Assembly (NCBI RefSeq): GCF_014217785.1
Contig: NZ_CP048814.1
Location: 310,001 to 374,000 of the forward strand
DNA from: Rhodococcus triatomae
GTDB lineage: Bacteria > Actinomycetota > Actinomycetes > Mycobacteriales > Mycobacteriaceae
Reading direction: 5' to 3'
DNA: 64,000 nucleotides
In this document: one piece after another, positions 8,424 to 49,354 of the stretch
Layout of the letters: each line of letters opens with the position of its first letter
Numbering within the stretch: the stretch's first letter is position 1
Program-made: the position numbers and the translations under genes
Notes under the pieces: model-generated
Seen by the model: only the letters and a program-made list of their open reading frames with translations
Told to the model about the DNA's origin: nothing
The model's database searches: none

Positions 8424-8474
8424 GGCACAATGTCACACCGGTTCGATCTGAGCGAACCGGTGTGACATTGTGCC
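8424..8474. terminator. Perfect 22-bp inverted repeat between convergent genes
   Basis: Arms 8424-8445 and 8453-8474 are exact reverse complements over 22 bp, with a 7-nt ATCTGAG loop. It lies 25 nt after the TPM gene and 56 nt after the glyS stop on the opposite strand, so it probably ends transcription in both directions. There is no U-tract, which is common in actinobacterial terminators. Confidence 0.7.
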
Positions 8475-37215: not shown

Positions 37216-37276
37216 CCGCCCACGCCACTCTCTGACCGCCCACGCCCGATCCCCTCCCCGCACCCACCCCCACCTG

Positions 37277-37325
37277 GGTGAAGGTGGCCTTCGACCGGTC
37301 TGAGGAGCCGAAGGCCACCTTCACC
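37277..37325. terminator. 17-bp inverted repeat at the sodA/cysA junction
   Basis: Arms 37277-37293 and 37309-37325 are perfect complements (GGTGAAGGTGGCCTTCG and its reverse) with a 15-nt loop. The right arm includes the cysA stop codon. It serves both convergent genes. Confidence 0.7.
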
Positions 37326-38499
37326 CGCGGGTGGCGGAGACTCCGGGGGTGGTGTCGGTGGTGGTGGTGGTGTCGGTGGTGGTGGCGTCGGTGGCAGTGT
37401 CCGGGGTGGCGGACGACGCGGCGTGCCGTCCGCCGGTGCCGTCCTTCGGATCACCGGCGTTCGAACCGGCGGCGCCGGACGCGTCGGCGGGATTCGCCAC
37501 CACGGCACGTTCGGGCAGATCGGGGGCGCGGGTGGCGCGGGCGAAGACGGTCTCGCCCTCACGCAACCCCAGAGCGGCACTGTCACCGCGGGTGACCTGG
37601 GCCGAGAACCGCTCGCCGGTGGCCTCGTTGCGCAACTCGACGCGCACCTCGAAACCGAGGTGGACGACTCGCTCGACCGTCGACCGGGTCACCCCGAGCG
37701 ATTCGGCCGTACCCGATTCGGCAGCGAGCGCGAGATCCGCGGTGCGGCCGAGGCGAATGTCGTGCGGCCGGACGAGTTGACCGTTGAGCTTGGCGACGGA
37801 GCCGAGGAAGGACATGACGAAGTCGTTGACCGGGCGGTCGTACAGGTCCGCGGGCGGACCGACCTGTTCGATCCGGCCGTGGTTGAGTACCGCGATCCGG
37901 TCGGCGACGTCGAGCGCCTCCTCCTGGTCGTGCGTGACCAGCACCGTCGTGACGTGCACCTCGTCGTGCAGGCGCCGCAGCCACGTTCGCAGGTCCGCCC
38001 GCACCTTCGCATCGAGCGCACCGAACGGCTCGTCCAACAGCAGCACCTGCGGATCCACCGCGAGCGCGCGGGCGAGGGCCATCCGCTGCCGCTGGCCGCC
38101 GGAGAGCTGTGACGGGTAGCGGTGCTGGAAGCCGTCGAGACCGACGATCTCGAGCAACTCGTTGACCTTCTTGTCGATCTCACGCTTGGGCCGCTTGCGG
38201 ATCTCGAGCCCGAACGCGACGTTCTTGCGCACGGTCAGGTGCTTGAACGCCGCGTAGTGCTGGAAGACGAAGCCGATGTCCCGCTTCTGCGGCGAGACGT
38301 CGGTGACGTCCTTGCCCGCGATGGACACGGTGCCGTCGTCGAGGGATTCGAGGCCCGCGATGGCACGCAGGAGCGTCGACTTCCCCGACCCGCTGGGACC
38401 GAGCAGCGCCGTCAACGACCCCGAAGGGATGTCGAGCGTCACGTCGTCCAGGGCTGCGAAGGACCCGTAGTTCTTGCGCGCGCCGGTCACGGTGATCAT
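37321..38499 (-). CDS. cysA: Sulfate ABC transporter ATP-binding protein
   Basis: Energises sulfate import. The 392-residue protein has Walker [10 protein letters not shown], Walker [13 protein letters not shown], signature [15 protein letters not shown] and switch-loop [13 protein letters not shown], then a regulatory TOBE-type domain. The C-terminal tail is low-complexity Ala/Asp/Thr ([11 protein letters not shown]), encoded by GGT/GTC-type microsatellite DNA near 37353-37395. Its ATG overlaps the cysW stop. The order subI-cysT-cysW-cysA is as in mycobacteria. Confidence 0.95.
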
Positions 38500-45710: not shown

Positions 45711-46646
45711 TCAGGACCCCGAGGCGCGGGCGTAATCGTCCGCCACGAGCTGCGCGATCGCCTCCATCGCGCGGGCGTTCGGATGCGCCGGCTCGGCCGG
45801 AGACCCCGGGATCAACCCCTCGAACCAGCGGTCCTCGCGGGCGGCACACGCGTCGTGACCACCGTCGATGGCGGCCTTCGCGATGTCCACGTATTCGACT
45901 CCGTGGCGCTGCGCGGCGGTGACGTAGATGTCGTTGAACCGGTCGAAGTAGCCCGAGAGCCAGGTGGCGTCGGCATCCGACATCGGCAGGTTCGGCCAGC
46001 AGCCGCGATGTCCGACCGAGCCGCCGTGACCGATCAGGTACACGCGGGCGTTGGGGGCGGCACGCACGACCGACTCCACCACGGCGTCGACCTGGGGGCG
46101 CATCCGCTCGACACCGTCGACGACGAGCCTCTCGGAGAGGGCGTTGTCCCGGCAGTGCGCATCGGCACCCGGGATCAGCGCGACGCACAGGGCCGTCACC
46201 GGGAGATGGTTCGATCCGCCGCCGCCGATGCTGATCGTGACCAGATCCGTGTCCGGGCCCAGCTGCTCGAGCTGCGGCGGCGCGAAGCGCGTCCCGACGA
46301 ACTGAGCCGTGTCGATCACGTGCTCGGGTTTGGCCGCGGAACAGGTGACGTCGACGAACGAGGACGCGTCGAGTGAACGCGCCAGCAGCGCCGGGTAGTT
46401 CGCGGTGGTCGACCGCAGGCACAGGTCCCGGTGGGATGCGACGTCGATCAGGGGCCCCGACGCGCGCGAGTCCCCCAGCGCGACGTAGGCGGGCCCGGAG
46501 CGCGGTGCGGCGTCCGGACCGACGTCCGGCGTCGCCGACGCCGCCGCGCTCCCGGCCACCGTCGCGGTGAGCGCGAGCGCACCCACCGCAGCGACGCGAA
46601 CCGCTCGAATCACACGATCGACCCGACTCACACGATCGAACTGCAC
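45711..46646 (-). CDS. Secreted SGNH-type hydrolase (paralogue 1)
   Basis: A 311-residue exported hydrolase. A signal peptide (residues about 1-38) precedes an SGNH fold: block I ALGDSRASG with the nucleophile Ser in GDS, block II VTISIGGGGSNH, block III VYLIGHGGSVGHRGCW, and a C-terminal His in AEPAHPNARAMEAIA. Several cysteines may form disulfides. Likely an esterase or lipase acting outside the cell on lipids or wall esters. The next gene upstream is a tandem paralogue sharing about half of these blocks. Confidence 0.85.
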   Translation of the reverse strand: MQFDRVSRVDRVIRAVRVAAVGALALTATVAGSAAASATPDVGPDAAPRSGPAYVALGDSRASGPLIDVASHRDLCLRSTTANYPALLARSLDASSFVDVTCSAAKPEHVIDTAQFVGTRFAPPQLEQLGPDTDLVTISIGGGGSNHLPVTALCVALIPGADAHCRDNALSERLVVDGVERMRPQVDAVVESVVRAAPNARVYLIGHGGSVGHRGCWPNLPMSDADATWLSGYFDRFNDIYVTAAQRHGVEYVDIAKAAIDGGHDACAAREDRWFEGLIPGSPAEPAHPNARAMEAIAQLVADDYARASGS

Positions 46647-46677
46647 ACTTGCTCCTCTGTCAGGGCCCGGTCGGGCT

Positions 46678-47586
46678 TCAGTACTGCAGTTCCGCGGCGA
46701 TCATGTCCGCGACCGCCTGCATTCCACGCTCGTTGAAGTGCCCGGGTTGCGCGGAATCCGTGGGGATCAGGCCCTCGAACCACTTCTCTCCCGGCTCGGC
46801 GCACGGATCGTGACCACCGTCGACGGCAGCGCGACCGATGTCGACGAAGTCGACGTCGTACCGGTCCACCAGATCGCGGTAGATCTGGTTGAACCGGTCG
46901 AAGTAGTCGACCAGGAACTGTGCATCGGCATCCGAGTACGGAATCGAGGGCCAGCATCCGCGAGGACCGACCGCTCCACCGTGGCCGACGAGGAAGATCC
47001 TGGCATTCGGCGCCGCCTCCCGGACCGCCGCGACCGCGCGGTCGATCTTCGGTGCCGCCTGCGCGATACCTTCCTCGGCGTCCCGCAGGGTCTTCTCGTC
47101 GTCACGGCAGCGGCGGTCCAGCCCCGGGACCGGGGTGGCGCAGTTCTCGCGGGTGACGACGACGTGATTGGAATCGACGCCGCCGATACTGAGGGTCACC
47201 AGTTCGGTGTCCGGCCCGAGTGCCTCGATCTGGGGCGGGCGGACGACGCCGGGAAGGCGTTGCGGAGTGTCGACGATGTTCTCCGAGCGCGCCGCGATGC
47301 AGGTCACGTCGGTGAAGCTCGAGGCGTCGAGGGCGCGGGCCAGTTTCGCCGCGTAGTTCTGGTCGGACCTCATGCACAGGTCACGGTGCGACAGCGTGTC
47401 GATGAACGGGCCGGCCGCGCGGGAGTCACCGAGTGCGACGTATCGCGGGCCGGAGCCCTCCACCGAGACTCCCTCCGCAGAGACTTCGGTCTGCTCGGCG
47501 GGAGGTTGCGCGGCGGCCGGAGCCGCCAGGACCAGACCGGCCACCATCGCCCCGACCACGGCGGACGTCACGGACCCTGCACGCAC
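46678..47586 (-). CDS. Secreted SGNH-type hydrolase (paralogue 2)
   Basis: A 302-residue exported paralogue of the gene just downstream, with ALGDSRAAG, VTLSIGGVDSNHV, IFLVGHGGAVGPRGCW and the C-terminal His in SAQPGHFNERGMQAVADM. The signal peptide spans about 1-27. GTG 47586 is used; its ribosome site GGGAG lies in a perfect hairpin (47590-47624), so initiation may be controlled. The pair probably arose by duplication. Confidence 0.85.
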   Translation of the reverse strand: MRAGSVTSAVVGAMVAGLVLAAPAAAQPPAEQTEVSAEGVSVEGSGPRYVALGDSRAAGPFIDTLSHRDLCMRSDQNYAAKLARALDASSFTDVTCIAARSENIVDTPQRLPGVVRPPQIEALGPDTELVTLSIGGVDSNHVVVTRENCATPVPGLDRRCRDDEKTLRDAEEGIAQAAPKIDRAVAAVREAAPNARIFLVGHGGAVGPRGCWPSIPYSDADAQFLVDYFDRFNQIYRDLVDRYDVDFVDIGRAAVDGGHDPCAEPGEKWFEGLIPTDSAQPGHFNERGMQAVADMIAAELQY

Positions 47587-47624
47587 GTAATTCTCCCTGC
47601 GTCGACGACGAGTGCAGGGAGAAT
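47587..47624 (-). promoter_or_regulatory. Hairpin sequestering the ribosome-binding site of the SGNH hydrolase
   Basis: On the minus strand ATTCTCCCTGC (47614-47624) and GCAGGGAGAAT (47590-47600) are perfect 11-bp complements with a 13-nt loop. The 3' arm holds GGGAG, the likely Shine-Dalgarno, only 3 nt before GTG 47586. A folded stem would hide it. Confidence 0.55.
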
Positions 47625-47635
47625 CATGCCTCACT

Positions 47636-47672
47636 CGCGTTGCCCGGGCAGCGTGGACGCCCGGGCAACGCG
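47636..47672. terminator. Terminator after aquaporin gene
   Basis: Arms 47636-47649 and 47659-47672 are 14-bp perfect complements (CGCGTTGCCCGGGC type) with a 9-nt loop. It lies just after the aquaporin stop at 47680 on the minus strand and upstream of the SGNH gene. Confidence 0.7.
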
Positions 47673-47679
47673 GGTGGGG

Positions 47680-48453
47680 TCAGCTGAGCAGTCGGTCCGT
47701 CCGGCCGAAGATCGCGCGGTAGGCGAATGCACCGATGATGCCGCCGAGCAGCGGGAACACGATGAAGAGCCACAGCTGAGCGAGCGCACCGTCCTGGTAG
47801 AAGGCCACCGCGATGCTCCGCGCCGGGTTGACCGACGTGTTGTCGATCGGGATGGCCACCAGGTGCAGTACGGCGAGGGTGAAGCCGATCGCGAGGCCCG
47901 CCTGCGGGATGTTGGAGATCCGATCGGTCGACGCGAGTACGACGAACACCAGCACGGCGGTGAGGATGACCTCGACGACCATGGCGGCTCCGATGCCGTA
48001 GCCGTTCTCGAGCACTCCACCGGCCGGACCGACCACGGCGGACGGGCTGTGCTCACCCCATCCGTTCGCGCCCAGTCCGTCGACCGAGCGGTCGTAGGCC
48101 GGCAGGGAGTTCGCGACCGCGAAGATCGTCAGGCCCGCGACGAGGCCGCCGACGATCTGCGCGACCCAGTAGCCGGCCGCGGTCACGATGCTGATCCGAC
48201 CGAGGCCGAACTGGCCGAGAGTGACCGCCGGATTGACGTGACACCCCGAGATCGGACCGATCGAGTACACGAGGAACAGCAGCGTGAGGCCGAATGCGAG
48301 GGCGACGCCGAGGTTTCCCACCTTCGCTCCCGCGAACACCGCGGTACCGACCGCGCAGAACACCAGTAGGAAGGTGCCGACGGCTTCGGCGGCGTACTTC
48401 TTGACTTCCGAGATCGGTTCGATCTCTTCGATTTCCTGTGCGGTTGGAGACAT
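47680..48453 (-). CDS. Aquaporin (MIP family, AqpZ-like)
   Basis: A 257-residue water channel with six membrane segments and the two NPA half-helices in GCHVNPAVTLG and NTSVNPARSIAV. Selectivity-filter context (aromatic GYW near the first half and R in SVNPARS) favours water over glycerol. An acidic N-terminal tail (EIEEIEPISEVKKYA) is cytoplasmic. ATG 48453 begins MSPTAQEIEE. Confidence 0.9.
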   Translation of the reverse strand: MSPTAQEIEEIEPISEVKKYAAEAVGTFLLVFCAVGTAVFAGAKVGNLGVALAFGLTLLFLVYSIGPISGCHVNPAVTLGQFGLGRISIVTAAGYWVAQIVGGLVAGLTIFAVANSLPAYDRSVDGLGANGWGEHSPSAVVGPAGGVLENGYGIGAAMVVEVILTAVLVFVVLASTDRISNIPQAGLAIGFTLAVLHLVAIPIDNTSVNPARSIAVAFYQDGALAQLWLFIVFPLLGGIIGAFAYRAIFGRTDRLLS

Positions 48454-48511
48454 GAACCCACCTTCGTCGAGCGGATCGGCAGTCTTGCTTTCGCCAGTTC
48501 TCGATCGGACT

Positions 48512-49354
48512 CTACGCCAGACGGGTGATCTCCACGACAACTTCGAGATCTGTTGCCCGACCACCGGAGAAGATTCCCTTCAGCGGGGGAACGTCCTTGT
48601 AATCGCGCCCGAAACCGACCGAGACGTGTTGCTCGCGTACCGGAATGGCGTTCGTCGGGTCGTATCCCCACCACCCGCCCGTCCACGCCTCGATCCAGGC
48701 ATGGCTCTGCCCCTCGACGGTCTCGTTGAGCGCCGCATCGGCTTTCGGGTGGAGGTAGCCGGAGACGTACCGGCTGGGGATTCCCATGCTGCGCAGCAGC
48801 ACCAGCGTCAGGTGCGCGTAGTCCTGGCACACGCCCTTGCGTTCTCCCCACGCCTCGATCGCCGAGGTGTGCACACCGGTCGTGCCGGGGACATAGGACA
48901 TTTCGTCGTAGACCCAACGACAGGCGGCGACCACCGCCTCGTCCGGGCTGCGGCCGGCACTCAGTTCCTCAGCGACTCCGGCGAGTTCGTCGTCGCGGGG
49001 GGCATACGTCGTGTGCGCGAGTTGCTCGTCGAAGCGATCTCGCACCGCGTCCTCGCTCAGACCTGCCCAGTCCACCGAATCGCGTACCGCGGTGAACGGT
49101 TCGGTTTCCACCACGGACAGGCCCGTGACCTCGAGCTCGGTGTGCGGGGCGTGCAGATCGAAGGCCGTCACGGCGGTGCCCCAGTAGTCGGTGTACCGAT
49201 ACGACCGTGTCGCCGGGTCGGTTTCGACACGGTTGAGCACCACCGTCTGCCTGCTGTCGCCTCGGGGCGTGAGCCGGGCCTCGTTGTACGACGACGTCAC
49301 GGGCGCGTCGTACGCGAACCCTGTGGTGTGCACGACCCGCATCCGCCAGCTCAC
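48512..49354 (-). CDS. Transglutaminase-like protein (Rv2409c-like)
   Basis: A 280-residue cytoplasmic transglutaminase-fold protein. The catalytic triad Cys-His-Asp is visible in ERKGVCQDYAHL, GQSHAWIEAW and WGYDPTNAIPV. An N-terminal beta domain (MRVVHTTGFAYDAPVTSSYN) is typical. GTG 49354 overlaps the alpha-E gene stop (GTGA). With the alpha-E and ATP-grasp genes it forms a widely conserved operon of unknown role, likely a peptide or protein modification system. Confidence 0.88.
   Translation of the reverse strand: MSWRMRVVHTTGFAYDAPVTSSYNEARLTPRGDSRQTVVLNRVETDPATRSYRYTDYWGTAVTAFDLHAPHTELEVTGLSVVETEPFTAVRDSVDWAGLSEDAVRDRFDEQLAHTTYAPRDDELAGVAEELSAGRSPDEAVVAACRWVYDEMSYVPGTTGVHTSAIEAWGERKGVCQDYAHLTLVLLRSMGIPSRYVSGYLHPKADAALNETVEGQSHAWIEAWTGGWWGYDPTNAIPVREQHVSVGFGRDYKDVPPLKGIFSGGRATDLEVVVEITRLA

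Follow-up and report, generated by a model that had tools for sequence, protein, structure and literature searches.

In phage T4, the lysozyme gene e, like soc, 49 and I-TevI, is described as one whose ribosome-binding site (RBS) is hidden in a stem in long early transcripts, and for gene e a late promoter sited at the stem's 5′ strand yields an RNA that lacks this strand and is translated (as outlined in PMC3014915). The locus considered here, ahead of a hydrolase gene in a 64,000-nucleotide stretch of Rhodococcus triatomae DNA (the window), resembles gene e in that the RBS is paired in a long RNA and free in a short one, in this case in silico. It differs in that the T4 switch, as that account presents it, is timed by phage late promoters and has been shown experimentally, whereas ours is a chromosomal actinobacterial gene with a presumed housekeeping-type -10 element, analysed in silico. 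RNA thermometers that mask the Shine-Dalgarno sequence (SD) have, like the window, an SD that is held in a helix immediately ahead of the start codon; the window's stem, however, is too stable to melt and probably lies outside the primary transcript.

Two further systems invite comparison. In the fold-back inhibition of IS10/Tn10, the transposase RBS is covered when read-through RNA folds back, and transcription from the inner promoter begins within the stem. The lock proposed below follows this read-through fold-back logic, but the gene it would act on codes for a GDSL hydrolase, with conserved genes on either side in the chromosome, and not for a transposase. In KstR-type operators, an inverted repeat lies between the -10 and the start, the same promoter position as that of the repeat in the window, although no motif common to the two was seen and the window's hairpin has no second copy in its genome. 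A literature search found no paper on the hairpin itself.

The hydrolase gene and its hairpin

The hydrolase is encoded on the minus strand (46678..47586, GTG start at 47586) and belongs to the SGNH/GDSL type (PF13472, E 1.2e-21; 78.5 bits, above the curated cut-off of 32.9), with an N-terminus that is signal-peptide-like when judged by eye. A tandem SGNH paralogue follows on the same strand (45711..46646, GTG at 46646; PF13472, E 2.2e-19), and because its start is only 31 nt past the stop of the first gene, it is probably co-transcribed with it and without a promoter of its own. That the paralogue lacks a comparable hairpin, as the first-pass annotation had pointed out, was borne out, and is probably a consequence of its being the second gene of the operon. 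Upstream and co-directional lies an aquaporin (MIP) reading frame (47680..48564, minus strand; PF00230, E 1.2e-46), a possible source of read-through RNA into the hydrolase. Directly after its stop there is a terminator-like inverted repeat (47629..47679, minus strand), with 21-nt arms (47629-47649 and 47659-47679) that match at 90% and have a 14-bp perfect core. The annotation had called this a strong terminator; the strong inverted repeat is real, but it has no T-run and was not listed by the terminator scan. By eye, R. tibetensis (L036 / L013) has a similar long GC-rich stem without a T-run after its aquaporin stop. In R. opacus, R. jostii, R. wratislaviensis and R. koreensis (L034, L037, L038, L039), the SGNH gene follows the aquaporin gene almost directly, no GGCATGAT is present, and the two genes may form one operon.

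The hairpin consists of two fully complementary 11-nt arms on the minus strand: the 5′ arm, first in gene direction, at 47614..47624 and the 3′ arm at 47590..47600, separated by a 13-nt loop (47601..47613). In the RNA the order is AUUCUCCCUGC-13 nt-GCAGGGAGAAU-UAC-GUG, with the SD, GGGAG (47597-47593), inside the 3′ arm and only 3 nt between the end of the stem and the GTG (47586-47584), so that the geometry given in the first-pass annotation was confirmed. Structure computation indicated that the pairing can be extended, in read-through RNA only, by CGUGC (47583..47587, minus strand) with GCAUG (47625-47629), which takes in the GUG start. A 71-nt piece folds with a minimum free energy of -30.2 kcal/mol (z -1.96). 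A further GTG, at 47632-47634, lies in frame 48 nt upstream, and if it were the hydrolase start the hairpin would be coding sequence; the longer N-terminus from GTG 47634 is possible, but it was set aside, as this codon lies upstream of the predicted transcription start.

Elsewhere in the window, at 37276-37326 and 8424-8474 (G000:C1:347276-347326 and 318424-318474), are long palindromes of dispersed, mostly intergenic families; copies of the gggtgaaggtggccttcgaccggt type were also seen at C1:232046, 236070, 396758 and 2203972, and copies of the atgtcacaccggttcg type near C1 2015218 and 2026625, the latter partial.

A putative promoter across the stem

The 5′ arm overlaps by its first two bases a CATGAT (47623..47628, minus strand), which is part of a longer motif, GGCATGAT (47623-47630), kept in relatives. 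In the window and in five relatives this motif is found 36-64 nt upstream of the start, with a different downstream sequence in each, and since CATGAT is kept while what follows it differs, it may be read as an actinobacterial -10. It fits the ANNNT class, reported for 79% of 6,090 promoters of M. smegmatis (PMC6448022), and it fits TAnnnT, given as the -10 of C. glutamicum (PMC3890552), except at the first base, where the preferred T is missing. In the C. glutamicum account, the spacer from the -10 to the transcription start is 3-11 nt, and on this usual spacing transcription probably starts within the 5′ arm, at about 47611..47619 (minus strand), a zone that includes a G at 47615. No -35 was recognisable by eye before CATGAT and the promoter scan lists no sigma-70-type promoter here; for M. 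smegmatis, earlier studies had found no SigA -35 consensus, as PMC6448022 relates. Genome searches with GGCATGAT plus a purine-rich RBS (12 matches against 2 in a reversed control) and with TRCGGCATGAT (8 against 5) were uninformative. The ATG in GGCATGATT was considered as the start of a leader peptide, a reading that was rejected because neither its frame nor its length is kept across relatives.

Accessibility of the SD depended sharply on where the RNA was made to start. Counting offsets from the end of CATGAT, the mean unpaired SD was 0.00 for all RNAs tried with starts at -40 to +1 (at or upstream of 47622), 0.06 at +2, and 0.69-0.79 at +3 to +15 (47620 onward), while the start codon of the short RNAs was still partly paired (0.34-0.39 unpaired). 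The expected starts, +4 to +12, fall in the range of unpaired SD, so that translation would be expected of RNA from the gene's own promoter but not of read-through RNA. An own mRNA carrying the whole hairpin would leave the gene silent, which is hard to square with its being intact and with the existence of a 75% identical relative.

On these grounds we tentatively prefer, at somewhat less than even chances, to see in the hairpin a lock against read-through that is arranged around a promoter, in the manner of T4 gene e. RNA reading through from the aquaporin gene would carry the whole stem, with the SD and partly the GTG hidden, and the hydrolase would not be translated from it; RNA from the promoter at CATGAT (47628-47623) would start within the 5′ arm, form no stem, and be translated. 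Computation shows the stem itself, a conserved GGCATGAT and an RBS accessibility that changes sharply with start position; the role of CATGAT as a -10, an RNA start near 47615, read-through past the upstream repeat and the blocking of that read-through as the selected function are what we infer from them.

Relatives of the locus

The genome falls with Rhodococcus, and a match was found in 25 of the 28 genomes of its genus that were searched. From genes with a recognisable YVALGDS-type motif, 110 distinct SGNH upstream stretches were collected, and in eight of them GGCATGAT or GTGCATGAT precedes the gene. These eight come from the window, R. rhodnii, Rhodococcus sp. HNM0569, two Williamsia and two Rhodococcus MAGs, of which one has two loci; the remaining 102 stretches served as controls. 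Folding of 48-nt windows, compared with shuffled sequences, gave its lowest mean z over the seven loci other than our own (-2.1 to -2.6) when the folding window started at -8 to +1 from the end of CATGAT; for starts at +10 and beyond, the mean was close to zero or positive. At offset -2, the individual values were -2.7 (L002), -0.8 and -0.3 (second and first SGNH of L005), -7.5 (L009), -2.4 (R. rhodnii, L010), -0.3 (L064) and -2.6 (L068), i.e., four of the seven have a clear hairpin (z <= -2.4), with arms unrelated in sequence. In the 102 controls, 4.8% of 816 windows reached z <= -2.3, giving a binomial P of 1.6e-4 for an offset picked post hoc. The perfect stem after GGCATGAT in HNM0569 (L009 / L055; z -7.5), of about 16 bp and in the corresponding promoter position, is far stronger than that of the window. 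The upstream gene is co-directional at seven of the eight loci, and all five hairpins, including the window's, are among these seven; the single divergent locus (the second SGNH of L005) has none, and the first SGNH of L005 and L064 are co-directional, with GGCATGAT or GTGCATGAT, and have no hairpin or a weak one. The excess of hairpins over the controls and their confinement to co-directional loci speak for the read-through lock, and the two co-directional loci that lack a clear hairpin speak against it.

The masking of the RBS was a different matter. It was found in one of the six loci compared, that of the window, the RBS lying outside the stem in all five relatives. There, SD accessibility on going from the long to the short (+8) RNA, that is, from read-through to own RNA, fell in four (0.79 to 0.69, 0.55 to 0.34, 0.66 to 0.55 and 0.67 to 0.46) and rose slightly in one (0.52 to 0.59); at one of the five, the first SGNH of L005, it was the start codon and not the SD that the long RNA kept paired (0.00 unpaired), and the short RNA left this codon free (0.84). 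The six leaders aligned poorly, MAG394 being misaligned. What the loci have in common is a stem at the promoter, and not SD masking. The pairing at these loci includes bases before the expected start site, and hence the promoter's own RNA cannot use the whole stem. This leaves room for a rather doubtful but broader suggestion, a promoter design of the whole lineage in which a stem running from the -10 across the start, present with a co-directional upstream gene only, is selected as structure while its sequence turns over, and which would give read-through and own RNA opposite fates.

Weighing the explanations

That SD masking is not shared by relatives is the main weakness of the read-through lock, and it makes a stem marking the boundary between transcripts its chief rival. 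This would be a hairpin kept in this position in the lineage with any sequence, by which the upstream RNA is ended or protected; that it reaches the RBS in the window would be an accident of this species' leader, which is the shortest (36 nt from CATGAT to the start). We consider it unlikely, though a serious candidate. It would lead one to expect stems that are placed alike but unrelated in their arms, as seen at four of seven other loci, and an RBS outside the stem, as in the relatives; in R. rhodnii GGCATGAT lies about 11 nt after the aquaporin stop, making the stem the first structure past that gene; set against this, the stems have no T-run after them and in the window another strong repeat is already upstream. 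The latter (47629-47679) may by itself stop read-through, which would also count against the lock, as do the missing first T of CATGAT, the lack of a recognisable -35 and the number of such stems to be expected by chance. In 800 kb of the same genome, perfect stems of at least 11 pairs covered the SD at 2 of 2,269 SD-plus-start sites, a figure that includes internal starts, true gene starts being fewer; one is the window's hairpin and the other is at G000:C1 ~2037271. Simulation gave 1.3e-4 per site, or 0.3 expected in the 2,269, and about one in the whole genome, so the stem, although rare, is weak evidence by itself. A functionless inverted repeat of a GC-rich genome would accord with these numbers and with the abundance of perfect stems of at least 11 pairs outside crudely called genes (31 and 28 in two 400-kb stretches, many of them after genes). 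It is nevertheless improbable: with loops of 3-20, 43 and 46 such stems were counted per 400 kb, where six random controls had 3-13, and the position-specific hairpins of the relatives exceed background.

The remaining explanations concern regulation proper. A palindrome between -10 and RBS would suit a repressor by its position, and the same genome has, at G000:C1:2203499-2203530 (L230:3499-3530), a comparable 14-bp palindrome with TAGAACAGGTTCTA between a -10-like GTAATG and a gene start, which we take to resemble a KstR operator before what is presumably a ketosteroid-isomerase-like gene. The DNA operator, also raised in the first-pass annotation, is nonetheless decidedly improbable for the window: the genome has a single exact copy of the element, sequences close to it number 61 per strand against 60 in a reversed control, searches of the genome with the full repeat and with the half-site gave no regulon, the arms differ in every relative, and the 13-nt spacing is long for one dimer. 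The annotation's own preference was a translational switch in the gene's own mRNA, controlled by temperature, a protein or a small RNA. The RBS is indeed sequestered if the RNA holds the whole stem, but from the -10-like motif GGCATGAT, which is conserved and ends at the foot of the 5′ arm, one would predict that the new transcript begins inside the hairpin and does not contain all of it, and the masking is not conserved; a start within the hairpin, which the annotation itself had set against its switch, is in our estimate the most likely state. As to temperature, the SD in RNA with the full stem stayed shut in silico (<=0.003 unpaired up to 70 C), and a thermometer, being unlikely, was rejected on this ground. 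Rfam matches in 46500-48600 were none but a sub-threshold snoRNA on the other strand. The switch is thus very improbable and mostly unsupported, whereas the observation that gave rise to it stands.

Were the hairpin due to chance, it would serve to set a base rate, about one perfect RBS stem of at least 11 pairs in a genome of comparable size and composition. If the read-through lock is true, it would bring a device of phage and transposon style to an ordinary bacterial gene, in genomes whose intergenic stems are often taken as terminators, and it would be a caution against taking every RBS hairpin for a riboregulator until the start of transcription has been established.
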